From: Methanolinea sp.
GTDB taxonomy: Archaea > Halobacteriota > Methanomicrobia > Methanomicrobiales > Methanospirillaceae
DNA: 64,000 nucleotides
Assembly (NCBI GenBank): GCA_018263335.1
Contig: JADFCY010000005.1
Span: 36,466-100,465, forward strand
Reading direction: 5' to 3'
The translations under genes were made by a program, and so were the position numbers. The notes beneath the pieces are model-generated. The model saw only the letters and a list, made by a program, of their open reading frames with translations, did no database searches and was not told where the DNA came from. Below, piece by piece: positions 14,109 to 58,747 of the stretch (within the stretch, counting starts at the first letter, position 1; each line of letters begins with the position of its first letter).

Positions 14109-14444
14109 ATGACCTCACCCTTCATCATGGTCCCCTCTCTCACGGAAGTGCACACAGGTTATTCATTCTCGCTATAGATATTCCTGATCAAAGATCACTC
14201 ATGAGAAACTGGGTCGCATGAGCGCTGCCGCTCCCCCCACTCCAGGGCAATGGCACAAAAAACCCGGAAATCGCCGAGCGGCCCATCAGCGGGAAGTCCG
14301 TCCGGCGGGTGTCCGACGGGGGATGGGATATTTTATTACATATCCCTTCTATACATATTATAACCCAAAATACACAATATTTGGGTTTAAAAATTTAAAA
14401 GAACAGTCTTATGACTGTGAAATCCACATGCAAAGATCCTGCCC

Positions 14445-14518
14445 GGGGCCATAGGGTAGCCTGGCCATCCTAGGAGACTGGGGGTCTTCTGACCTGCGTT
14501 CAAATCGCAGTGGCCCCA
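14445..14518 (+). tRNA. tRNA-Pro (anticodon GGG)
   Basis: Acceptor GGGGCCA/TGGCCCC, anticodon loop CTGGGGG, T-arm GCGTTCAAATCGC; TATA-like tttaaaaatttaaaag upstream. Confidence 0.92.
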
Positions 14519-14544
14519 TTCATTATCATTCTGCAGAAATAGCC

Positions 14545-15402
14545 ATGAAATTTGACGACCGCTGTTTTGACTGCCTTCTCTCCCGCGTATCCCTGGAATG
14601 CAGCCTCTGTGGCGCGGGGGAGGAACGATCCGCAGAGATCAGGGAAGAGTGCGCCCGGCTCCTTCTTGACCTGCGCACCCGGCCGCTTTCGCATCCACAG
14701 ATAGCGAGTGCGATGCATCGCCTCGCATATTCCCGGCTCGGGACAGGCGACCCGTTCAGGAGGCTAAAAGAGGAGAGCACCGCCCAGGCCCTCGAGGTAT
14801 GCAGGACCGTCCGGCCACGCATCAGGAGTTTTCGCGACCATGTCCTCGCGAGCGTGATCGGAAATACGTTTGACTATGGCGTCAAGTCCCATACCGTGAA
14901 CGCCAATTTTTCACAGTATTTCGAGGAGGAGTTCCAACTTGGCCTTGCCATCGACGACTGCGACCGGATCCTTCCCCTGGCGTCAGATATTGTGTACTTC
15001 ACCGACAACTGCGGGGAGATCGTCTTTGACCGGCTGCTGCTTGAGTTTCTCCACAGGTGTGGAGCAAAGGTCACGCTGGCAGTCCGCGAGGAGCCCATCC
15101 TGAATGACGCCACGCGCGAGGAAGCCCTCGCACTGCACATGGACCGCTTCGCAGATGTGATCACCCATACCGGCTGCGGCTGCGAGCTTGGTGTGCGCCT
15201 CGACTGCATGCCGGATCCACTCCGGTGTGCGATGGAGACCTGCACGCTGGTAATCTCGAAGGGCATGGCCAACTACGAGTCTCTCTCGGAGTACCACGAC
15301 CTCCCGCCCGTCGCATACCTCATGGCCGTGAAGTGCGAGCCCATCGCTGACGAAGTGGGAGTTCCCAGGGGGAGCAAGGTCGCGATGCTGCGGTTCCAGT
15401 GA
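14545..15402 (+). CDS. DUF89/ARMT1-like damage-control phosphatase family protein
   Basis: FDCLLSR, DNCGEIVFDRLLLE and SKGMANYESLSE motifs. Confidence 0.9.
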   Translation: MKFDDRCFDCLLSRVSLECSLCGAGEERSAEIREECARLLLDLRTRPLSHPQIASAMHRLAYSRLGTGDPFRRLKEESTAQALEVCRTVRPRIRSFRDHVLASVIGNTFDYGVKSHTVNANFSQYFEEEFQLGLAIDDCDRILPLASDIVYFTDNCGEIVFDRLLLEFLHRCGAKVTLAVREEPILNDATREEALALHMDRFADVITHTGCGCELGVRLDCMPDPLRCAMETCTLVISKGMANYESLSEYHDLPPVAYLMAVKCEPIADEVGVPRGSKVAMLRFQ

Positions 15403-15404
15403 AT

Positions 15405-15587
15405 GGCACTTCCTGCACCCCCCGCAGGAGTGCCCGGTGGGCAATTTGGATCAGGTATAGTGAGGAGACGACAGGTCTGTTGGACCTGGAAGAAAGTGTC
15501 CGTAAATCTGAGACCGGCGGGGGTACCCCCCTCCGGACCACCCCCGCACAACCCCCGCAGGAGTGCCCGGTGGGCACTCCTGCTCCC
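15405..15587 (-). repeat. Family A repeat, one full unit
   Basis: GCAGGAGTGCCC-GGT-GGGCACTCCTGC, GATCAGGTA, GTAAATCTGAGACCGG, GGGGGTACCCCCCTCCGG. Confidence 0.92.
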
Positions 15588-15591
15588 CGCA

Positions 15592-15611
15592 GTTGCGGCT
15601 ATTGCCCCAAC
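15592..15611. terminator. Hairpin GTTGCGGC-TATT-GCCCCAAC overlapping the tfuA stop codon
   Basis: One mismatch in 8-bp arms; stop codon 15599-15601 lies in the loop region. Confidence 0.45.
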
Positions 15612-16264
15612 GGCTCCCTCGAAATCTCCCTCGTCCTCCGGAGGGCCTCCAGCGCGTCCTCCCTCTTCTGGTCTACTGCGTGGGAGCGGGCGAAATCGAG
15701 GAACGACCGCAAGGCCGCAGGAGATACCGAGCCTTCCGCCCGCTCGCAGATGTGGGGGTAGGTCCGGTCCGGGAAGTAGAGAGCGCGGGCGGTGGAGAGG
15801 AGCGCTGCGGCGTCGCCAGAGGTGAGGATGCCCTCCTCCCTTGCCTTCCTGAGGGTGCAGCGGATGTTGATGAGAGGCTCGGAGAGGGGCGCGTAGTCCG
15901 ACGGGTCGTAGACGAGTGCGACCTCGTCGTCTGAAACAAGGACCCCGTCCCGGTACAAGCGGTAAATGAGCCCCACCCCCTCCATGCCGAGTGTGTCGAG
16001 TTCCGCAGCGCGGAGCGCCCCCATGCTGGAGGCACCGATCACCCGGATGCCGGACTTGAGCGCCGCAAGGATCTCGCGGTGGCCGACGGCACTCTCCTGG
16101 AAGAAGACCCCGTCAATGAGGGTAATGATGCGAGCGCCGTCCTCCGCAGCAGCAGTCAGGTCGCCCCGTGCCGCGGGGGGGAGAATATACTCCTCCGGGA
16201 GGATCGTCCGCGCGACCTCCCGCTCACAGCTTGGGCCCAGGTATACTGCGATTGCGCGCGGCAT
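15599..16264 (-). CDS. tfuA: TfuA-like protein
   Basis: [30 protein letters not shown] motifs; overlaps ycaO. Confidence 0.9.
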   Translation of the reverse strand: MPRAIAVYLGPSCEREVARTILPEEYILPPAARGDLTAAAEDGARIITLIDGVFFQESAVGHREILAALKSGIRVIGASSMGALRAAELDTLGMEGVGLIYRLYRDGVLVSDDEVALVYDPSDYAPLSEPLINIRCTLRKAREEGILTSGDAAALLSTARALYFPDRTYPHICERAEGSVSPAALRSFLDFARSHAVDQKREDALEALRRTREISREPLGQ

Positions 16265-17438
16265 GGCAGCGTGCCCCCATGCGTTCCTGGTCCATGGCAT
16301 AGACCTCGAGTCCCGGGACGATCACCCTGACCACCGGGACGTTGATCTCGGGCCGGGTGAGGTCCACGACGATCACCCGGTCAATCCCGGCGCCCTCCAG
16401 GCGGCCGAGGGTCATCCTGATGTCGGTCAGGAAATCGTCGCTGTCAAAGGAGGGAACGTCTGCAAATGGCTCTTCGCGGGGCGAGTCGAACCAGTAACGG
16501 TTCATCCTTCTCGCACGCTCGTATCCCATGACCTTCCGCATGTCCGCGGTGGGGGTGTCCTCCCTCGCGCCGTGGATCTGGGTCAGCCTGCTCTGGGCCA
16601 CCTCCGTCAGCGCACGGAGGAGCGCGATTGCGGCATTCGTGTGGGTCCCCATCCCGATGGTGAGAAGCGTCGGGTCCCGGAGCCGGAGGTCGTCGGAGAC
16701 CGCGGCGAAGGTGGGGATGCGAAGGTCGCTCGTGATGTCCTTGACCCGGACCTCAACTTCAGCCGACTCGAAACGGGAGAGAAGGTCACCGGGAAGAGCC
16801 CCGTTTATTCCCGTCACCATGGGGCCAGTCCTCCTGCTTGCCTCGGCAAGGGACCAGGCGTCCCGCTCGATCACCTCCATCAGCGCGTGGAAGACCGCCT
16901 CCTCCAGGGTATTTCCCGAGGCAAGGCCGTTCGTGGAGGTCCGGAAGAGCTGGGGGTACTGCGGCGGAAGGGGGTGGAAGACGGCGCTTGCAGGGACCAT
17001 GATCTCTTCCTCGTGCAGGAGGTCGTACCCCCGCGCCCAGGGGACCGGCATCCCGGGGTCGGCGTTTCTGGGGAGGACGAGGAGCGAGGGGTCAAGCGCC
17101 GGCCCCTCCCCTCTCATCGCCCCGAAGCGTTCAACCCGGAGCTCGACCCCGTCCGGGACTTCCGCAGAATACCGCTCGATCCCCTCCATGATCGCCGAGA
17201 CCTTTGCCTCGGTGGGGGTGGCACCCTTTCCGTTGTAGACAGAGACCGCCCCCCTCCCCGCGGTCGGCCGGATGCTGGAGAAGACGGGAATCCCGATCCG
17301 GTCGAGGCTCGTGATGTCCGCGACCCGCGTGATCCCGGCTGCGGGGAGTGCCTTCTCCACCCGGGCGAGGGTCTCGTCGGGCGAAGTGGTGCGCTGGGTC
17401 TCGTTCCTGTAGGCCTTCTTGCATGGCGAGAGGATCAT
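16224..17438 (-). CDS. ycaO: YcaO-domain protein (candidate McrA thioglycine-forming partner of TfuA)
   Basis: [50 protein letters not shown] motifs. Confidence 0.92.
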
Positions 17439-48979: not shown

Positions 48980-50287
48980 GTGATCCCCATCGCACCAACG
49001 CCCCCCACGACGCGACCTGGACTCGTACGAAGGCTCGGGTTCTGGGAGGTGACCCTCTCGGGAATCGGGATCATCCTCGGCGCCGGGATTTACGCGCTCA
49101 TCGGGGCGGCTGCCGGGACTGCCGGCAATGCGGTCTGGCTCTCGTTCGTGATCTCGGCGCTCGTCGCGTTCTTCACCGCCCTCTCCTACATGGAGCTCTC
49201 CTCGATGATGCCGGACGTTGGCGCCGAGTACGAGTATACCGCAAGGGCGGTAGGCCGCCGGGTGGCGATGGTGGTCGGGTGGCTCATCATCTTTTCCGGC
49301 ATCCTCGGGGCGGCGACGGTTGCGCTCGGGTTTGCCGGGTACCTCGAGGGGCTACTGGCGGTCCCGGCCTTTGCCGCCGCCATGCTGCTGATCGCGGCTC
49401 TCTGCGGGATCCTGCTGCTCGGCGTGAAGGAGAGCGCGTGGGTTGCGGTCGGGTTCACCCTCATCGAGGTGGGCGGGCTCCTGCTGATCATCGTTGCCGG
49501 GCTCCCGTACCTCGGGCGGGTGGACTACCTGGAGATGCCAATCGGGATGACGGGGGTGGTGTCCGCCGCGGCGCTGGTCTTCTTCGCCTACCAGGGGTTC
49601 GAGGAGATGGTGAAGTTCTCGGAGGAGACCATGAGGCCGGAGCGGACGATTCCATTCGCCCTGATGACGGCGCTTGCGGTCTCGACCATCCTCTACATCC
49701 TGGTCTGCCTCTCGGCGGTGAGCGTGGTCGGCTGGGAGGCGCTCGCGGCCTCTTCCGCACCGTTTGCGACCGTTGCGTCCGCGGCATGGGGAGCCGATGC
49801 ATCGCTCCTCCTCTCGGTCATCGCGCTCTTTGCGACCGCGAACACCGTGCTGATGATGATGTTTGCCTCCTCGCGGATCTCGTACGGGATGGCCCGTGCA
49901 GGCTCCCTCCCGGGGTTCATCTCGAGCGTCCATCCCGGCCGGCACACCCCCTGGACCGCGATCCTCCTGGTCGGGGCAGGCGCGCTCCTCTTCATGTTCA
50001 CCGGGGATATTGCGTTCGTTGCAAATATTGCGAACTTCACCCTCTTTGTCACGTTCGTGGTGGTGAACCTCTCGGTGATCATCCTCCGCTACAAAGAGCC
50101 CGGAAGATCAAGGCCATTCTCCATTCCCGGCAGGCTGGGGAGATTTCCCGTCTTCCCGCTCCTCGGCCTCCTCTTCTGCCTCTTCCTGCTGGTGCAGCTC
50201 GAGCCGGCCGTCCTCGGCGTGGGAGCGCTCCTTACCGGGATCGGGGTGGTGATCGCGGTCTTTTACGGGAAGGGAGCCGCGAGGTGA
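48980..50287 (+). CDS. APC-family amino acid permease
   Basis: LGFWEVTLSGIGIILGAGIYALIGAAAG; ~12 TM. Confidence 0.92.
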   Translation: MIPIAPTPPTTRPGLVRRLGFWEVTLSGIGIILGAGIYALIGAAAGTAGNAVWLSFVISALVAFFTALSYMELSSMMPDVGAEYEYTARAVGRRVAMVVGWLIIFSGILGAATVALGFAGYLEGLLAVPAFAAAMLLIAALCGILLLGVKESAWVAVGFTLIEVGGLLLIIVAGLPYLGRVDYLEMPIGMTGVVSAAALVFFAYQGFEEMVKFSEETMRPERTIPFALMTALAVSTILYILVCLSAVSVVGWEALAASSAPFATVASAAWGADASLLLSVIALFATANTVLMMMFASSRISYGMARAGSLPGFISSVHPGRHTPWTAILLVGAGALLFMFTGDIAFVANIANFTLFVTFVVVNLSVIILRYKEPGRSRPFSIPGRLGRFPVFPLLGLLFCLFLLVQLEPAVLGVGALLTGIGVVIAVFYGKGAAR

Positions 50288-50314: not shown

Positions 50315-50587
50315 TTATAGATCCCGGCAAATATGCTTGCGGTGGCCGAGATCAATGACGAGGATCACGAAGTAATCCTGCCCGATATCGAGAATGACCC
50401 TGTACTCCCCCACCCTGTGGGAATACACGGTTCCAGTCGACTGGCCCTTGATCTTTTTCAAGGATCTCCTGGGATCAGGCTCTCTTGCCAGAGCAAGAAG
50501 GTCATCTCTTATCCGGAAGAGAACCGGTCTTGGTATCTGCTTTGCATTCCTTATTGCATGAGGCGACCAGAGTGTGGTCCAGGTCAT
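50315..50587 (-). CDS. RelE/ParE-family toxin
   Basis: LKKIKGQSTGTVYSHRVGEYRVILDIGQDYFVILVIDLGHRKHIC. Confidence 0.88.
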   Translation of the reverse strand: MTWTTLWSPHAIRNAKQIPRPVLFRIRDDLLALAREPDPRRSLKKIKGQSTGTVYSHRVGEYRVILDIGQDYFVILVIDLGHRKHICRDL

Positions 50588-50805
50588 TCAAGTCCCAGTT
50601 CCTTGAGCGCTTCTTCCATCGTGTAAAACCGGCCGGAACTGACATCTTCCCTGGCCTGCCTTATCGCATTCAATGTCTCGACGCTGAGTGGTTCCTCATC
50701 GAGTGCATGTGCAACCAGGCGGTCTATCACATCGGAATAGGACTCGCGAGGATGGACCTTGAGATCCGAGAGTGCCTCTTTTGTCTTCTCGTTGATCCGT
50801 ATCAT
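50584..50805 (-). CDS. Antitoxin of the RelE-type pair
   Basis: MIRINEKTKEALSDLKVHPRESYSDVIDRLVAHAL; overlaps the toxin start. Confidence 0.8.
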   Translation of the reverse strand: MIRINEKTKEALSDLKVHPRESYSDVIDRLVAHALDEEPLSVETLNAIRQAREDVSSGRFYTMEEALKELGLE

Positions 50806-50816
50806 CGATCCTTGCA

Positions 50817-50847
50817 TATACAATTGTATACTTATGTTATACATAAG
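50817..50847. promoter_or_regulatory. Palindromic operator candidate of the RelE-type locus
   Basis: TATACAATTGTATA (50817-50830) plus CTTATG-TTATA-CATAAG (50831-50847). Confidence 0.6.
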
Positions 50848-50921
50848 CATATAAATTCCTGACACTACTGGTGAGCGTCAGAAAGCAAGGAGAGAGTCAG
50901 AATAATGGCGAAGCAGTGGGT

Positions 50922-52046
50922 CTATACCCACTCGCTATTTCCCACATACGGCCGGTTCTCCTCAAGGCACATCGCCAGGTCCTGCATGATCCCCTGCAGG
51001 TCCCCGGTATCGTAAAACCTCTCCGCGAGGACCTGCCCAAGGCTCCCCTCCTCGATCCTTGTCCTCACCAGCGGCAGGTACCGCCGCTCGTCGCCGGTCG
51101 CGACCTTCTCGGCGCGGCGATAGAGTGCCGCAAGTTCGTCCTCGAGGCCGGCGGTTCCCGCCCGGATGGCCCGCTCCGTCATCGCGACGAGCGTATCCCG
51201 GTCCTCTTCGAGGGGGAGGTCGCGGGCCCTTGCGAGCGCCCGCACGAACGCACAGAGCGCCATGTCCGAGAAGACGCATTCCTGCTCGTCGATTGCCTTG
51301 ATCTCGATGCAGGGCCTGCTGAAACGGACGATCACTCCCGAGGACGCAACCCACTCCTCGCAGAGGACACCTGCCCCCTGTGCACGGAGCTCCGCATACA
51401 TCCCCGAGAGCCGATCCCGGTAGTCTGCGACCGTTGAGATGGGATCCGGGACGATCCCGTTGCAGATCGCCGGGATACGCGCCTGGTTCTCCCGGTAGAA
51501 GAGGAGGCGATTGTCGACCGGGCCGGGGGCCTTTCCCTCGACGAACGGGGATGCAGCCGAGACGGCGATGAGGAAGGGGAGGAGGCACCGGATGCGGTTG
51601 TGGAGAGAGACGAGGCGGCTCTCGTCCGGATACTCGAAGTTCACCTGCAGCGCCTGGATATTCAGCCACCCGTGCTGGCGGATGCCGAAGAGGCGGTCAT
51701 ATGCGGTGTAATACTCCCCCTCGCCATGGTCCCAGACCTGCGCCCGGTCCAGTGAGAGGGTCGGGTGCATCCCGAGGCCGAGGAGCCGGTAGCGGCCGGC
51801 GAACCGCCGGGAGAACTCCCGGACTCCCCCCTGGACCGATGACTCGAGGTCTGAGAGGCTCTCCGAGGGGTGCAGGGGTATCAACTCGATCACGTGCTTC
51901 TGCAGCTCCTTGCAGGCCTTTGCACCCCCAAGCGGCATCTCGCCGTCCCAGCCCCCGCCAATCTCCGCGAGGACAAGGTCGGACTCGGGCAGGGGAACAA
52001 ATCCCGGCCCGTTGAGGGAGTACTCGTGCTCGGTTCCCGTCTTCAT
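50922..52046 (-). CDS. GCS2-type glutamate-cysteine ligase-like / carboxylate-amine ligase
   Basis: GTEHEYSLNG; LGMHPTLSLD; NIQALQVNFEYPDESRLVSLHNRIRCLLPFLIAVSAASPFVEG. Confidence 0.87.
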   Translation of the reverse strand: MKTGTEHEYSLNGPGFVPLPESDLVLAEIGGGWDGEMPLGGAKACKELQKHVIELIPLHPSESLSDLESSVQGGVREFSRRFAGRYRLLGLGMHPTLSLDRAQVWDHGEGEYYTAYDRLFGIRQHGWLNIQALQVNFEYPDESRLVSLHNRIRCLLPFLIAVSAASPFVEGKAPGPVDNRLLFYRENQARIPAICNGIVPDPISTVADYRDRLSGMYAELRAQGAGVLCEEWVASSGVIVRFSRPCIEIKAIDEQECVFSDMALCAFVRALARARDLPLEEDRDTLVAMTERAIRAGTAGLEDELAALYRRAEKVATGDERRYLPLVRTRIEEGSLGQVLAERFYDTGDLQGIMQDLAMCLEENRPYVGNSEWV

Positions 52047-52555
52047 GGGGCCCCACTCTCCCCGGGAGGTATGGGGATCTCGGCCACGAGCTCGGTCTCG
52101 GGCTCAGGGATTCGGTTGATCACGTCGAGTTCCTGCGCGGGAAGGGACCGGACCAGCACCATCAGGCTCTTTACCGCCATCCTGAACTGAGTGGCATATG
52201 CATCCGCATCCGCCTTGAGATAGGGGACCAGGGGGCATATGGTCTCGTGCTTGAGGAAGAGGCGGAGGGTATGGTCCTGCACCTCGAAGGTGAAGGGCCC
52301 TGCCACGCAGGTCTCGGGCTTGAAGGCATGGACCCGGCACTTGCCGCCGCTGCACATGATGCACATCCCGTTGTCGTGCGACTTCATCCGGGTATACCCG
52401 ACGAATTCGATCACCGAAGGCGGCACTCCCCTCGCACGGAACTCCTCTATCCGCGCGGGGGAGAGCGGGGGATGCGCCTCGTGGCAGCATTTCCCCCCGC
52501 ACCCGGCGCAGATGGCCTCTGCTGTCTCTTCAAAGGATCCTGGCATGGCTGGCAC
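52043..52555 (-). CDS. YkgJ-family Cys-cluster protein
   Basis: CAGCGGKCCHEAHPPLSPARIEEF...CIMCSGGKCRVHAFKPETCVAGPF. Confidence 0.88.
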   Translation of the reverse strand: MPAMPGSFEETAEAICAGCGGKCCHEAHPPLSPARIEEFRARGVPPSVIEFVGYTRMKSHDNGMCIMCSGGKCRVHAFKPETCVAGPFTFEVQDHTLRLFLKHETICPLVPYLKADADAYATQFRMAVKSLMVLVRSLPAQELDVINRIPEPETELVAEIPIPPGESGAP

Positions 52556-52557
52556 CT

Positions 52558-53430
52558 TCAGGTCTCGAGGAGTGTGTGCACGATCTCCCGGTACACGTGG
52601 GGGTATGCGGTATCCTCGCCGCCCTCAAGCGACGGGTTGTCGTTCACCTCGATGACGCAGGGGCCTGCCGGCCCCTCCTTGATGTCCACGCCGTAGAGCC
52701 CGTTGCCGATTGCCCTGCCGGCCCTGACCCCGAGGTCTATGACCGCGGGGGGGACCAAGGCGGGAGGGACGCTCTCTACCCCGCAGTAGACGACGTGGCC
52801 GTTTACCGAGTCCTGGATCTTGAAGGTCTGTGAAGGGATGATGTACTTGCACGCATACAGGAACCGTCCCCGGAGCACGCCTACCCGCCAGTCATACGTG
52901 CTCTCCACGTACTCCTGCGCCACGACCCAGTCCGAGAGCTTGAAGTATCGCCTGGCCACCTGGAGGAGCTCTCCTGGTCCCTGCACCTTCTCCACCCGGA
53001 GCGAGAACGAGGTGGAGGGCTCCTTGACCACGAGGGGAGACCCGAGCTCGTCGAAGACCTGGCGCGCCCTTTCATGGGTCAGTTCGCGGTACGAGAGGAA
53101 GAGCGTCCGCGGGATCTCGATCCCTTCCCGCAAGAGCGTTGCGTACATGTGCACCTTGTCCGAGCAGACCTGGATGGATTCCGGGTCATCGATCACGGGG
53201 ATGCCGGCGAACGCGGCCATCCGGGAGGCGACATACGTGATGTTCATCGGGTCCGTCCTGGCACGGATGAAGAGCCCGTCCACCTGGGGGATCTTGCGTA
53301 TGTCCACCGGGAAGATGAACTCGGCCGCGTGTCCCATCTCCTCGGCGGCGTCGCGGCAGCGGATCAGGGCATTGAGCTGTTCTGCGGACGAGAGGGTCTT
53401 TCTGTCCACGAATATGCCGAGGCGGCTCAT
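52558..53430 (-). CDS. RimK-type ATP-grasp ligase
   Basis: PVIDDPESIQVCSDKVHMYATLLREGIEIPRTLF; PLVVKEPSTSFSLRV; GVDIKEGPAGPCVIEVNDNPSLEGG. Confidence 0.9.
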   Translation of the reverse strand: MSRLGIFVDRKTLSSAEQLNALIRCRDAAEEMGHAAEFIFPVDIRKIPQVDGLFIRARTDPMNITYVASRMAAFAGIPVIDDPESIQVCSDKVHMYATLLREGIEIPRTLFLSYRELTHERARQVFDELGSPLVVKEPSTSFSLRVEKVQGPGELLQVARRYFKLSDWVVAQEYVESTYDWRVGVLRGRFLYACKYIIPSQTFKIQDSVNGHVVYCGVESVPPALVPPAVIDLGVRAGRAIGNGLYGVDIKEGPAGPCVIEVNDNPSLEGGEDTAYPHVYREIVHTLLET

Positions 53431-54167
53431 AGGAAGACCTGGCCCGAGAGATAGGCGGAGAGGAGCTCTTTTTCTGCAGGCGCCAGCCTTGAATAGCGGA
53501 CAGGGCAGAGCGAGGAGAGCCTGAGGCCGGAAGGCCCGTCCAGGCAGATGATCTCCACCAGGGGGATCCAAAACGCCTCCCATATCCCCGCGGCCATCCC
53601 GGCCATCGCAGGGTCGGGAGAGGAGACGTTCCCGAATATGGAGACGGCCCTCCTTATCGTTGCCCCATCTTCAAGCCGCTGCGAACAGAATGGATACTTC
53701 CCGTTGTTGGTCACGTGCCTGATCAGTTCCCGGGCCGATTCGTCTTCGCGGAGTACCTCGAAGTGCGAGGTGCAGGCAAAGTAGTTGAGGCCGTAGATGA
53801 CCGCAGGCGCCTGGATGCACGACTGTGAGATGGCATACTCGGCGACTGGTATCCCCTCCATCCGGGCCCGCTCGAGGCACACGGGCACCACGAACGCATC
53901 GAGGATCGCCCGGGTGCCAGGCGCCACTTTCTCTCCCTGTGTCTCGTGCATGAGGATCGAGTAATACGCCTCGCTCTTGTAGGAGTAATTCTCCGAGACA
54001 AGGTACATCACTCCTTCCCGCACCACGGTATGGAGGCTCTCCCGGCAGAGGGCCAGGCCGCTCTTTGCCCGCGAGGGATCTCTTCGGCCCTGGGCGTTGG
54101 CCCTGGGGAGGGCCTCACCGGGCGCAGGCGGCTCGAGGAGGAGCTGCCCTTCGGGCATCAGGAGCAC
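53427..54167 (-). CDS. Stand-alone RimK-like ATP-grasp N-terminal (RLAN-like) domain protein
   Basis: YLVSENYSYKSEAYYSILMHETQGEKVAPGTRAILDA resembles the RLAN YxSxxYYxSLLAExxGxxVxP pattern; overlaps the ATP-grasp gene. Confidence 0.7.
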   Translation of the reverse strand: MLLMPEGQLLLEPPAPGEALPRANAQGRRDPSRAKSGLALCRESLHTVVREGVMYLVSENYSYKSEAYYSILMHETQGEKVAPGTRAILDAFVVPVCLERARMEGIPVAEYAISQSCIQAPAVIYGLNYFACTSHFEVLREDESARELIRHVTNNGKYPFCSQRLEDGATIRRAVSIFGNVSSPDPAMAGMAAGIWEAFWIPLVEIICLDGPSGLRLSSLCPVRYSRLAPAEKELLSAYLSGQVFL

Positions 54168-54440
54168 ACCTCCGCGCAGAGGTGAGCGTGGCGTCCAGGT
54201 GAGGGTGAGGTGTTCGAAAAACTGTCAGCGTGGACCCTATCATGAGGGTCATCGTCGTTCTCGTTCTCTGGTTCTGGCATGGGGAACCACGAGCCGCAGT
54301 GTATGCGGCTGAAGAGGTATTACTCAGGTGGTGTGACAGTCTTGCCTTAAAGGTTTGTGGTCGGCATGATGGTTGGGCGAAAAAAAGAGGTGAATTCTGC
54401 CCGCATCCGCATGGGAAGCGGCCCCGCTTCTCCACCCGCG

Positions 54441-55097
54441 TCACTTGATCTCGATCCGCTCACCCGTCACCATGTAATGGACTTTCTCGGCGATCTTGCA
54501 GGAGTGATCCGCGCACCGCTCCAGGTAGCGGGCGACCATCAGGTAGTTCATGCACCGGGTGATCGTCCGCGGCTCTTCCATCATGTAGGTGATCCCCTCA
54601 CGAAAGATAGTATGGCGCAGCGCATCCACGACGTCGTCGCGCTCGGAGTGGTGCCGGATGTATTGGAGGTCCCCTGTCTCGTAGGCCCGCAGGGAGTCGT
54701 CGATCATCGAGATGACGAGGCCTGCCATGTGCGGGATCGAGAGGCCGGTTGCAAGGTCGCTTGCCCGGGCGTCCGTGGTGGCGATGACGACATTTGCGAT
54801 ATCCTTGCCATAGCGGCCGATCCGCTCGGCAGAGGCAATCACCTTCAACGCACAGGCAACCGCCCGCATGTCCCTTGCCACCGGCTGGTAGAGGGCGATC
54901 ATCCGGTAGACCTCCTCCTCCAGGGCATCGTTCTGTGACGAAAGCGCCCCTTTCCTGCCCTTCACGTCGCCTGCAAGGGCCACGTCCTGAGTCCTCAGTG
55001 CCTCGACTGCATCACGAAGCATCCCTTCTGCAAAGAGCCCCATCGCGAGTACTTTTCTCTGCATCTCTGCCATCTCTTCGTGGAACTTGTCGGTCAT
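54441..55097 (-). CDS. phoU: Phosphate uptake regulator PhoU
   Basis: FHEEMAEMQRKVLAMGLFAEGMLRDAVEAL...YLERCADHSCKIAEKVHYMVTGE. Confidence 0.93.
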   Translation of the reverse strand: MTDKFHEEMAEMQRKVLAMGLFAEGMLRDAVEALRTQDVALAGDVKGRKGALSSQNDALEEEVYRMIALYQPVARDMRAVACALKVIASAERIGRYGKDIANVVIATTDARASDLATGLSIPHMAGLVISMIDDSLRAYETGDLQYIRHHSERDDVVDALRHTIFREGITYMMEEPRTITRCMNYLMVARYLERCADHSCKIAEKVHYMVTGERIEIK

Positions 55098-55108
55098 ATC
55101 CGCATCAC

Positions 55109-55870
<762 letters not shown>

Positions 55871-55884
55871 GGTCTTGCTGTCGC

Positions 55885-57837
55885 CTAGTTCTTCTGGGAT
55901 TTCGTGCGTATCAGGATGGCCACCGAGTAGATCAGGACCACCAGGATCAGCAGCACCAGTGCGGTCGCATACTTGTTCGTGTCCGCGCCCGGCACGTTCG
56001 TCGCGAGGATGTAAAGGTGGTAGGGGAGCGCCATCACCGGCTCAAAGAGCGACGAGGGGAGGAACCGCTGGGAGAAGACGGCTGCGGTGAAGAGGATGGG
56101 GGCGGTCTCGCCCGCAGCCCTCCCGATCGAGAGGATTGCGCCCGTGATGATCCCCGGGATTGCGGGCGGGATCACCACGCGGGAGATCGTCTGCCACCGG
56201 GTTGCGCCGAGTGCAAAACTTCCTTCCCTGAGTGCAAGGGGGACGTTCTTCAGGGACTCTTCAGTGGTCCGGATGATGGTCGGGAGCACCATCAGCGCAA
56301 GCGTCACCTGTCCGGCGATCAGGGAGACCCCAAAGCCCAGGGACAGGACGAGAAACGCGAACCCGAAGAGCCCGAAGACAATCGACGGAGTGCCGTTGAG
56401 AAGGTCGGTTCCGGTGCGGATTGTCCGCGTGAGCCTCCCCTCCCTGGTGTACTCGGTAAGGTAAATGGCCGCGCCGATCCCCAGGGGGAGGGCGATTGCA
56501 ATTGCGCCGGCCACGAGGTACAGTGTCCCCACAAGGGCAGGGAATATGCCGCCGGCCCGACCCAGGTTCCGGGGAGGCTCGGTGAGGAACTCCCAGGTCA
56601 GGCCCGGGAGGCCATTGATGATGATATCGGAGAGAATGATGGCGAGGATCGCGATCACCGCCAGGGTTGAGGCCAGGAGGAGGGTGAACGCGACCTTCTG
56701 CGCGATCTTTGGGGTGACCCTTGCCTTCAGGCGCCAGAGGCAATACCCCATGAGCGCAACGCCAAAGTAGCCGGGCACTCCCGCAATGGGAAGTCCCAGG
56801 AGGGCTACGATCGCGATCAGGACATAAGGCCTGAGAGGTTCGAGCCGTGAAGAGAGTGAACTTCGCTCTTTTGGGAGGGCCCCCTCTGTCCTGCAGGACA
56901 GGACATTCGGTGCGTTCTGCTGCCGTATCCGTGCAAGGATGAAGGTCGCGGCGAGGTTCACGAGGAGTGTGATCACGAGCAGCACCACCGCGACTCCGAA
57001 GAGCGCATGGTAGTGCGCGCTGCCGATGGCAACCTCCCCCATCTCGATCCCGAGTGTCCCGGTCAGGGTCCTGACAGGCGAGAGGACGTTCCAGAGGGGG
57101 TCGGGGATGATGGCGGCGTTTCCTGTCACCATCAGGACCGCCATGGTCTCTCCTATCGCCCTCCCCATGCCGAGGATGACCGCGGCAGTGATCCCCGAGA
57201 CTGCCGAGGGGACGACAACCCTGGATATGGTCTGCCACCTCGTGGCACCGAGCGCGAGGCTGCCCTCCCGGAACTCGCGGGGGACCGAGGTGATGGCATC
57301 CTCGGAGACGCTGATGATGGTGGGAAGCGACATGATCCCGAGCAGGAGGGAACCCGCAAGCCATGACTCCCCCGACGGGACGCCGAAGGTGACCCGTATC
57401 CAGTCGGTGAGCACGATCAGGCCGAAGAACCCGTACACGACGGAAGGGATCCCTGCAAGGAGCTCGATTGCGGGCTTGGCGATTGCTTTCACGCGGGCGG
57501 GCGCAAGTTCCGCGATGTAGATTGCGCTCCCGATACCGAGAGGGACCGCCATCGCCATTGCCCCTGCCATCACGAGCAGCGTGCCTGCAATCAGCGGGAG
57601 GATCCCGTAGAGGGGGGGAGTGCCAGTGGGGTTCCATACCGTTCCGGTGAGTATCTCCAAAAATCCGGCCTGGACGAAGATCGGGAACCCGTCAATTAAG
57701 AGGAACGCGAGGATGAAGAGGATGACTGCGACAGAAAAAATGGCGCAGGCAAACCAGAGGAGCCTGATGATACCTTCCTTTGCCCGCCCCACCCGCCCGT
57801 GGCGGAATACCCCCGTGGACTGTTCGGGCACGGTCAT
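55885..57837 (-). CDS. Fused phosphate ABC transporter permease PstC-PstA
   Basis: 650 aa; two permease modules each with [22 protein letters not shown]-loop motif. Confidence 0.92.
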
Positions 57838-57877
57838 GGCGTATCCTTAAAAAAAAGAGAGGCGAGGGTTCATGGCC

Positions 57878-58747
57878 CTACACCAGGGGGACGAATCCCT
57901 CTTTTACAAGGATCGCCTGGCCGGAAGGCCCGGAGAGGAACGCAAGGTAGTCCTTTGCAAGCCCTGACGCCTCCCCCTTCGTGACCATGAGGAGCGGCCT
58001 TGCGATGGGGTACTTCCCTGAAAGGACATTTTCTACGGTAGGCTCGACGGGTGAGCCGGAGACCATGATCGGGAGGGCTCTTATGGCCCCGTCCACGTAG
58101 CCGAGCCCGACATACCCGATCGCGCCAGGAGTCTGCATGACCGTCTGCTTCACGGCACCGTTTGAGTTCTTCTCAAGCTGTGTCGGCACGAAGTCCTCCT
58201 TCTGCATGACCTTCTCGTGGAAGAACTCCCGGGTGCCGGACGCACTGTCCCGTCCCACTACGACTATCGGAAGGTCGGGCCCGCCGAGTTCCTTCCAGTT
58301 GGTGAAAGCCCCCTGGTACGCGCCCTTCACCTGGTCGAGGGAGAGTGGCCCGACAGTGTTGCCGGGGTGCACAATGACCGCAATTCCGTCATTTCCGATT
58401 ACCGTGGCCACGAGGTCGGGATACCTGGTCTTCTCCTCGGATTTCAGGTCGCGGGAAGACATCCCGATGCCGGCGGTGCCCTCGCCAACGGACTGGATGC
58501 CTACGCTGGAGCCGCCACCGCTGACGCGGATGTCGACATCCCCATGGGTATTCATGTAGGCGTCGGCTGCGGCCTGGGCGACGGGCAGCACGGTGGTGGA
58601 CCCGGTGATGGTGAGAGACTCGATCTTCTGTCCATGGGCCCGCGGGCCCTCTCCTCCCGGCTGCGTGCAGCCGCATACCACGAGCGCAGCCGCAAGGATC
58701 ACCGCGAGAACGGTGGCAGACAACATCCTGGTGCGTGAATCAGGCAT
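57878..58747 (-). CDS. pstS: Phosphate-binding protein PstS
   Basis: Lipobox-like VCGCTQ; SLTITGSTTVLPVAQAAADAYM; VVGRDSASGTREFF. Confidence 0.95.
   Translation of the reverse strand: MPDSRTRMLSATVLAVILAAALVVCGCTQPGGEGPRAHGQKIESLTITGSTTVLPVAQAAADAYMNTHGDVDIRVSGGGSSVGIQSVGEGTAGIGMSSRDLKSEEKTRYPDLVATVIGNDGIAVIVHPGNTVGPLSLDQVKGAYQGAFTNWKELGGPDLPIVVVGRDSASGTREFFHEKVMQKEDFVPTQLEKNSNGAVKQTVMQTPGAIGYVGLGYVDGAIRALPIMVSGSPVEPTVENVLSGKYPIARPLLMVTKGEASGLAKDYLAFLSGPSGQAILVKEGFVPLV

Follow-up and report, generated by a model that had tools for sequence, protein, structure and literature searches.

A conserved operon of RLAN, RimK-like ATP-grasp, CxxCxxCC and GCS2 proteins in Methanolinea and other archaea, a candidate pathway for amide formation

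Bacterial RLAN-RimK amidoligase systems were reportedly predicted by Iyer et al. in 2009, and the nearest bacterial system that we found to the locus described here is that of Legionella adelaidensis, in which an RLAN-RimK fusion is followed by a GCS2 gene and then by an N-formylglutamate amidohydrolase gene. The present locus is a tight four-gene operon in a 64,000-nucleotide stretch of Methanolinea sp. (assembly GCA_018263335.1, contig JADFCY010000005.1, positions 36,466 to 100,465; genome of 2.03 Mb, nearest named relatives among Methanolinea/Methanoregulaceae metagenome-assembled genomes), referred to below as the window. On the minus strand it runs from a separate RLAN gene through a RimK-like ATP-grasp ligase and a CxxCxxCC (YkgJ-type) protein to a GCS2-type ligase. 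We propose tentatively, with a probability of about 45%, that this operon makes a small glutamate- or aspartate-type amide by means of a heteromeric RLAN/ATP-grasp ligase and GCS2, aided by an accessory protein that would bind a metal and by carriers specific to particular lineages.

The operon with its four genes is confirmed. The families of all four proteins were called with Pfam, each above its curated cut-off, and both the identities and the places on the minus strand given in the initial annotation stand, except for the start of RLAN:

53427..54158, minus strand: RLAN protein, separate gene, 243 amino acids (aa), predicted degenerate ATP-grasp fold (Pfam PF14401, 3.5e-8; model pLDDT 88; Foldseek against LysX/ArgX/RimK, E 1e-7)
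52558..53430, minus strand: RimK-like ATP-grasp ligase, 290 aa, catalytic residues conserved (Pfam RimK, 2.1e-9; alignment; PDB matches to RimK/LysX)
52043..52555, minus strand: CxxCxxCC (YkgJ-type) protein in which eight Cys and an EPET segment are conserved (Pfam, 1.3e-8; alignment; no PDB fold relative)
50922..52046, minus strand: GCS2-type carboxylate-amine ligase, 374 aa (Pfam PF04107, 9.4e-31; alignment; match to plant glutamate-cysteine ligase)

The RLAN and ATP-grasp genes overlap by 4 bp (ATGA at 53430), the ATP-grasp and YkgJ genes are 2 bp apart and the YkgJ and GCS2 genes again overlap by 4 bp, so that the two overlaps and the single gap described earlier agree with the coordinates. 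The GTG at 54167, previously taken as the start of RLAN, is unlikely. The ATG at 54158 is preferred because it overlaps the stop codon of an upstream open reading frame (ORF, 54280-54158) as TGATG, and because relatives show a similar coupling of 1-4 bp.

The order RLAN-ATP-grasp-YkgJ-GCS2 was found in 40 sampled loci. Four others lack YkgJ, six hold RLAN and ATP-grasp alone, and in three this pair faces YkgJ only. In genomes that we take to be Archaeoglobi the pair faces YkgJ-GCS2 in three loci, while a further locus has all four genes on one strand with GCS2 ahead of YkgJ; in one Methanoperedens locus GCS2 lies on the opposite strand. The hosts are Archaeoglobi, Methanothrix, a Methanoperedens metagenome-assembled genome and Methanomicrobiales. 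Presence was surveyed in 299 evenly sampled Halobacteriota genomes, with GCS2 and YkgJ called at E < 1e-50: RLAN occurs in 44, GCS2 in 38 of those 44 and YkgJ in 36 of those 38, and no RLAN-negative genome of the 299 has an orthologue of GCS2 or YkgJ. The hypergeometric values for this nesting are 4e-42 and 2e-44, both inflated by kinship, and the co-occurring arrangement is far beyond chance. The nested presence, together with the rearranged orders and strands in Archaeoglobi, argues for a functional link among the four genes. Co-occurrence in relatives, named in the initial annotation as a test of the operon, is thus strict. The sets also suggest an order of dependence, in which the RLAN/ATP-grasp core can occur without GCS2 and GCS2 without YkgJ, never the reverse. 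RLAN and ATP-grasp are present and GCS2 is missing in genomes presumably of the Methanocella type, f32 and G038, and the ATP-grasp step is therefore independent of a GCS2 product. In two loci, L120 (5636-6631) and L121 (3295-4278), GCS2 is shortened and divergent, with about 330 aa, internal deletions and 33-34% identity to that of the window; both loci lack YkgJ, and a CitMHS carrier adjoins the shortened gene.

Loss of catalytic residues from either ligase had been named as a finding that would speak against the proposal, and the residues are conserved in both. Invariant in the aligned ATP-grasp proteins are K92, D180/R182, D249, E261 and N263, with K136 near-invariant, and GCS2 retains the GTEHE motif and the block R241/E248/D253-Q255. 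As far as alignment can tell, the active sites of both ligases are intact. The nearest PDB relatives of the ATP-grasp are RimK, LysX and ArgX, and it scores far under the curated NCBIfam cut-offs for RimK, LysX and MptN (75 against a cut-off of 143 bits for the RimK model TIGR00768, 36 against 331 for PRK10446, and 44 against 350 for the MptN equivalog); a separate, better MptN-like gene lies elsewhere in the genome of the window. GCS2 aligns with plant glutamate-cysteine ligase and falls far below the cut-off of every NCBIfam GCS model or curated equivalog. The ATP-grasp proteins of Methanothrix (L040-L070) are extended at the C-terminus by about 50 aa, a feature unseen in other lineages.

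RLAN is probably a partner of the active enzyme and itself an ATP-grasp domain in degenerate form. Its AlphaFold model, built with 26 RLAN sequences only, has a predicted local distance difference test score (pLDDT) of 88 and a predicted template modelling score (pTM) of 0.85. In Foldseek the best hits are LysX and ArgX (E 1e-7, probability 1.0, template modelling score 0.62-0.66 by query length), and all 50 matches listed are proteins of the ATP-grasp superfamily, on which the idea of an unknown alpha+beta fold was rejected. The only invariant residues are Y8, Y15, E22, P30 and P149, with no Lys, Asp or Asn among them, and the ATP- and Mg-binding Lys, Asp, Glu and Asn of ATP-grasps are not conserved in the aligned RLANs. 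The domain is read as degenerate because its model resembles ATP-grasp ligases while none of the catalytic residues is conserved. The RLAN segment YY.SLLAEARG..V.PS...I.D may correspond to the segment TY..A..A...G.PVIDDP.SI..C of the partner ATP-grasp. If true, this reading would explain the strict pairing of RLAN with the ATP-grasp, and we know of no earlier structural account of the RLAN family.

The YkgJ protein has eight conserved Cys and, near its C-terminus, a conserved segment I-EPET-D-VAEI, which in the model (pLDDT 86) is a confidently predicted strand and not a free tail; the true C-terminus is variable. No fold relative was found in the PDB by sequence or by structure, and a comparison with the ATP-grasp gave no relation.

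Upstream of RLAN a short leader ORF accompanied by RNA hairpins is found:

54346..54353, minus strand: TATA-like promoter element (CCTTTAAG; conserved ACCACAAA-C-TTTAA), conserved in aligned Methanolinea upstream regions
54292..54310, minus strand: leader hairpin 1 (AGCCGC...GCGGCT), in which the changes among Methanolinea sequences look compensatory; the Methanoregula-group equivalent is supported by covariation
54158..54280, minus strand: leader ORF of 40 aa (MPEPENENDDDPHDRV...), acidic N-terminus conserved, remainder not, stop overlapping the RLAN start (TGATG); codon-position signature
54233..54250, minus strand: hairpin within the leader ORF (GACCCT...AGGGTC), then a T-run at 54221-54217; from sequence and alignment

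Eleven Methanolinea upstream sequences, one of them divergent, have in common the TATA-like element, the hairpin and an ORF beginning M[PS]EPE[NST]E[NS]DDDPH[DN]RV. Substitutions in codons 2-16 are distributed over the three codon positions as 46/69/259, and in codons 17-24 the variable columns are even (7/6/7). The ORF occurs once per genome, upstream of RLAN only, with no homologue elsewhere in the genomes searched save for a single additional copy, in a genome that is fragmented. In the Methanoregula group the leader consists of a hairpin, an ORF with M.ECLNSDDDDEENHR..., a second hairpin with a T-rich run behind it, and a stop codon that overlaps the RLAN start; its covariance model has a match, nearly always single, in 30 of 39 genomes of that sister genus. 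Over 21 sequences of this group, pairing in the two helices is 89.7% and 25 changes are two-sided, a level reached by none of 500 shuffles and lowered to 28-56% by sliding the helix partner, although the statistic is favoured by the model-fitted alignment and related sequences can beat shuffles without structure. The sister-genus model gives no match in the window's own genome, and the homology of the two leader types therefore rests on position, peptide motif and layout. The operon region has no Rfam match and the leader no tRNA. In Methanothrix (L046, L047, L055, L059) a putative ORF with ..EEIQISENEMASDPDRHRSL.. just before RLAN is reminiscent of the acidic-HR leader.

Acidic residues near the N-terminus of a nascent chain destabilise ribosomes, and the EPDP motif of MgtL senses Mg2+ in this way (PMC11282234, PMC9718836). 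The archaeal leader shares with MgtL a short ORF with acidic and Pro residues just after the start (EPDP in MgtL, PEPE..DDDP here) and a structured RNA ahead of the regulated gene, conserved structure being supported here in the sister genus; it differs in being archaeal and in overlapping the next start codon. It could be a regulatory leader of the MgtL type, an Asp/Glu attenuator or a precursor peptide. The sequence evidence leads us to favour a regulatory leader because only the first codons and the RNA structure are conserved, and because the enzymes occur far more widely than the peptide, homologues of which were recognised in Methanolinea and the Methanoregula group only. By analogy, it may belong with the ribosome-destabilising leaders and may sense the state of the cell. 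A literature search found no ribosome-destabilising leader peptide on an archaeal operon, and to our knowledge such control would be new. The more ambitious combination, in which RLAN would be a catalytically dead ATP-grasp in an obligatory heteromeric ligase with the active ATP-grasp and the archaeal operon would also stand under an MgtL-like acidic leader peptide sensing ionic conditions or the supply of acidic amino acids through intrinsic ribosome destabilisation, is in our opinion a doubtful proposition as a whole.

Membrane carriers are found next to the cluster in several lineages, and one lies beside it in the window:

48980..50287, plus strand: APC-type amino acid permease, convergent, possible associated carrier (Pfam; neighbourhood comparison)

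An APC amino acid permease is convergent at the 3' end of the operon in seven Methanoregulaceae loci, including close relatives of the window. It directly abuts GCS2 in L031, L032 and L036; in the window, ORFs for a ParE-like toxin and a VapB/DUF7557-like antitoxin (50315-50865, minus strand) lie between the two. Carriers of the CitMHS/ArsB type sit immediately beside the cluster, with gaps of about -4 to 34 bp, in three loci of Archaeoglobi and four of Methanomicrobiales, and in a fifth Methanomicrobiales locus the carrier gene lies divergently to the cluster; between the two lineages most pairs of these carriers are about 28-34% identical, with about 25% for the protein of L114. Among the recurrent neighbours there is no conserved peptidase, amidohydrolase, LysW-like carrier or precursor gene. 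We lean towards a small molecule, over a protein tail, as the product because membrane carriers adjoin the cluster and no conserved carrier or precursor protein does. In L108 the CitMHS-type carrier gene beside GCS2 is itself split into two ORFs (14141-15339) by a frame shift or sequencing error, and the same locus has a second RimK-like ATP-grasp (15384-16298).

The general idea of an amide-forming pathway, put forward in the initial annotation, holds in view of the gene families, their co-occurrence and the conserved ligase residues. That annotation had not included the leader ORF, the carriers or the reading of RLAN as a degenerate ATP-grasp. From the families and the co-occurrence we infer the following mechanism. 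The product would be a small non-ribosomal amide or short peptide made from acidic amino acids. RLAN, degenerate and lacking catalytic residues, and the active RimK-like ATP-grasp would together form the core ligase, which would activate a carboxylate as acyl phosphate and join it to an amine. GCS2 would then form another amide, probably using the carboxylate of a side chain in the way that gamma-glutamyl ligases do, and the CxxCxxCC protein may bind a metal through its eight Cys and serve a later metal-dependent step tied to GCS2. Substrate or product may be moved by the CitMHS/ArsB-type carriers in Archaeoglobi and some Methanomicrobiales and by the APC-type carriers in Methanoregulaceae, where expression may also be tuned by the leader ORF with its acidic N-terminus and hairpins, coupled to RLAN by overlap.

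Several observations weigh against this proposal. Some genomes are free of YkgJ and of GCS2, so that not all four genes are needed; each type of carrier is specific to certain lineages, and the APC permease stands in convergent orientation only; and hhalign of the archaeal RLANs alone misses the ATP-grasp register. On the other side, the register appears as expected (p 0.0012) once five bacterial RLANs are added. Nor is a small amide the only product conceivable. The ligases of the operon could instead attach acidic residues to the end of a protein or to a carrier, in the manner of RimK on ribosomal protein S6 or LysX/ArgX on the carrier LysW, RimK, LysX and ArgX being the closest PDB structures to the ATP-grasp, and the YkgJ protein, Cys-rich like LysW and provided with the conserved EPET segment, could be such a carrier or target. 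Modification of a protein is nevertheless unlikely, given several genomes with the ligases and no YkgJ, and a segment that is predicted as a strand while the actual C-terminus varies. GCS2 and an ATP-grasp are also the fold pair of GshA and GshB, and with the alignment of GCS2 to the plant enzyme this would fit a glutathione-like thiol pathway, GCS2 making gamma-Glu-Cys and the ATP-grasp adding a third residue as GshB does. Such a pathway is improbable: RLAN and ATP-grasp persist without GCS2, the reverse of GshA first, the ATP-grasp is RimK/LysX-like and not GshB-like, and the NCBIfam GCS models are all far below cut-off.

Methanogens, Archaeoglobi and Methanoperedens, which include the hosts of the operon, all use F420, tetrahydromethanopterin and methanofuran-type coenzymes, and MptN and CofF are ligases of the RimK family, which would suit a lineage-specific tailoring of the tail of one of these coenzymes (F420, tetrahydromethanopterin or the methanofuran glutamates). 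Many methanogens in this order, however, and even one genome of the same genus lack the operon, and the separate MptN-like gene and the low MptN score of the ATP-grasp also speak against this role, which we hold to be less probable still. The least probable alternative makes the leader ORF, which is acidic, conserved, single-copy and at the head of the operon, the gene for a ribosomally made precursor peptide, with its Asp/Glu residues serving as substrate of the ligases. In graspetides, as outlined in one source (PMC8939145), ATP-grasps cross-link acidic side chains. The recognition of the peptide in two groups only, in the face of far more widespread enzymes, the end of its conservation after about 16 codons and the overlap of the ORF by RNA hairpins count against it. 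A small amide of acidic amino acids thus continues to be our preferred product. Two ligases with apparently intact active sites that are inherited together suggest a metabolite or modification that has so far gone unrecognised in archaea of environmental importance.

Directly upstream of the operon and on the same strand the window carries a complete pstSCAB-phoU phosphate uptake cluster (54441-58747, minus strand). Several further loci of Methanomicrobiales (L031, L032, L069, L071, L119-L121) also have pst/phoU genes adjacent to the RLAN cluster or in its vicinity, and in L115 phoU adjoins its other end. A link of the RLAN cluster to phosphate is possible.

Queries of plasmids with the ATP-grasp found RLAN-RimK fusions, while tblastn of plasmids with the archaeal RLAN alone gave no match. 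In Azospirillum and Tistrella the fusion follows a GNAT-DUF3335 protein (peptidase), and in Aeromonas (L144:6218-8446) it is followed after 18 bp by a gene of the MgtC family (Mg2+-related protein). The earlier remark that RLAN is normally fused to RimK and here separate is correct for the bacteria sampled, in which both form one ORF in plasmid records, but not as a peculiarity of the window's genome, since the archaeal loci examined are all unfused (no fusion among 58 archaeal RLAN/ATP-grasp neighbour pairs). The archaeal operon and the bacterial systems have in common the RLAN domain, the same ATP-grasp subtype and, in the Legionella operon, a homologous GCS2 that matches the archaeal GCS2 profile over its full length (6e-77). 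They differ in the fusion and in the accompanying genes, which are the CxxCxxCC protein and carriers in archaea, N-formylglutamate amidohydrolase in Legionella and the GNAT-DUF3335 peptidase in Azospirillum and Tistrella. With RimK, LysX and ArgX the archaeal ATP-grasp shares the fold, the ATP/Mg residues and the D-x-R motif, whereas it has no S6 or LysW context, scores far below the equivalog cut-offs and has a constant RLAN partner. The archaeal GCS2 has the GTEHE and core ligase motifs of YbdK and plant GCS, but forms a distinct subfamily under all curated NCBIfam cut-offs. The archaeal operon is thus a variant of an already known, functionally uncharacterised kind of amidoligase system.

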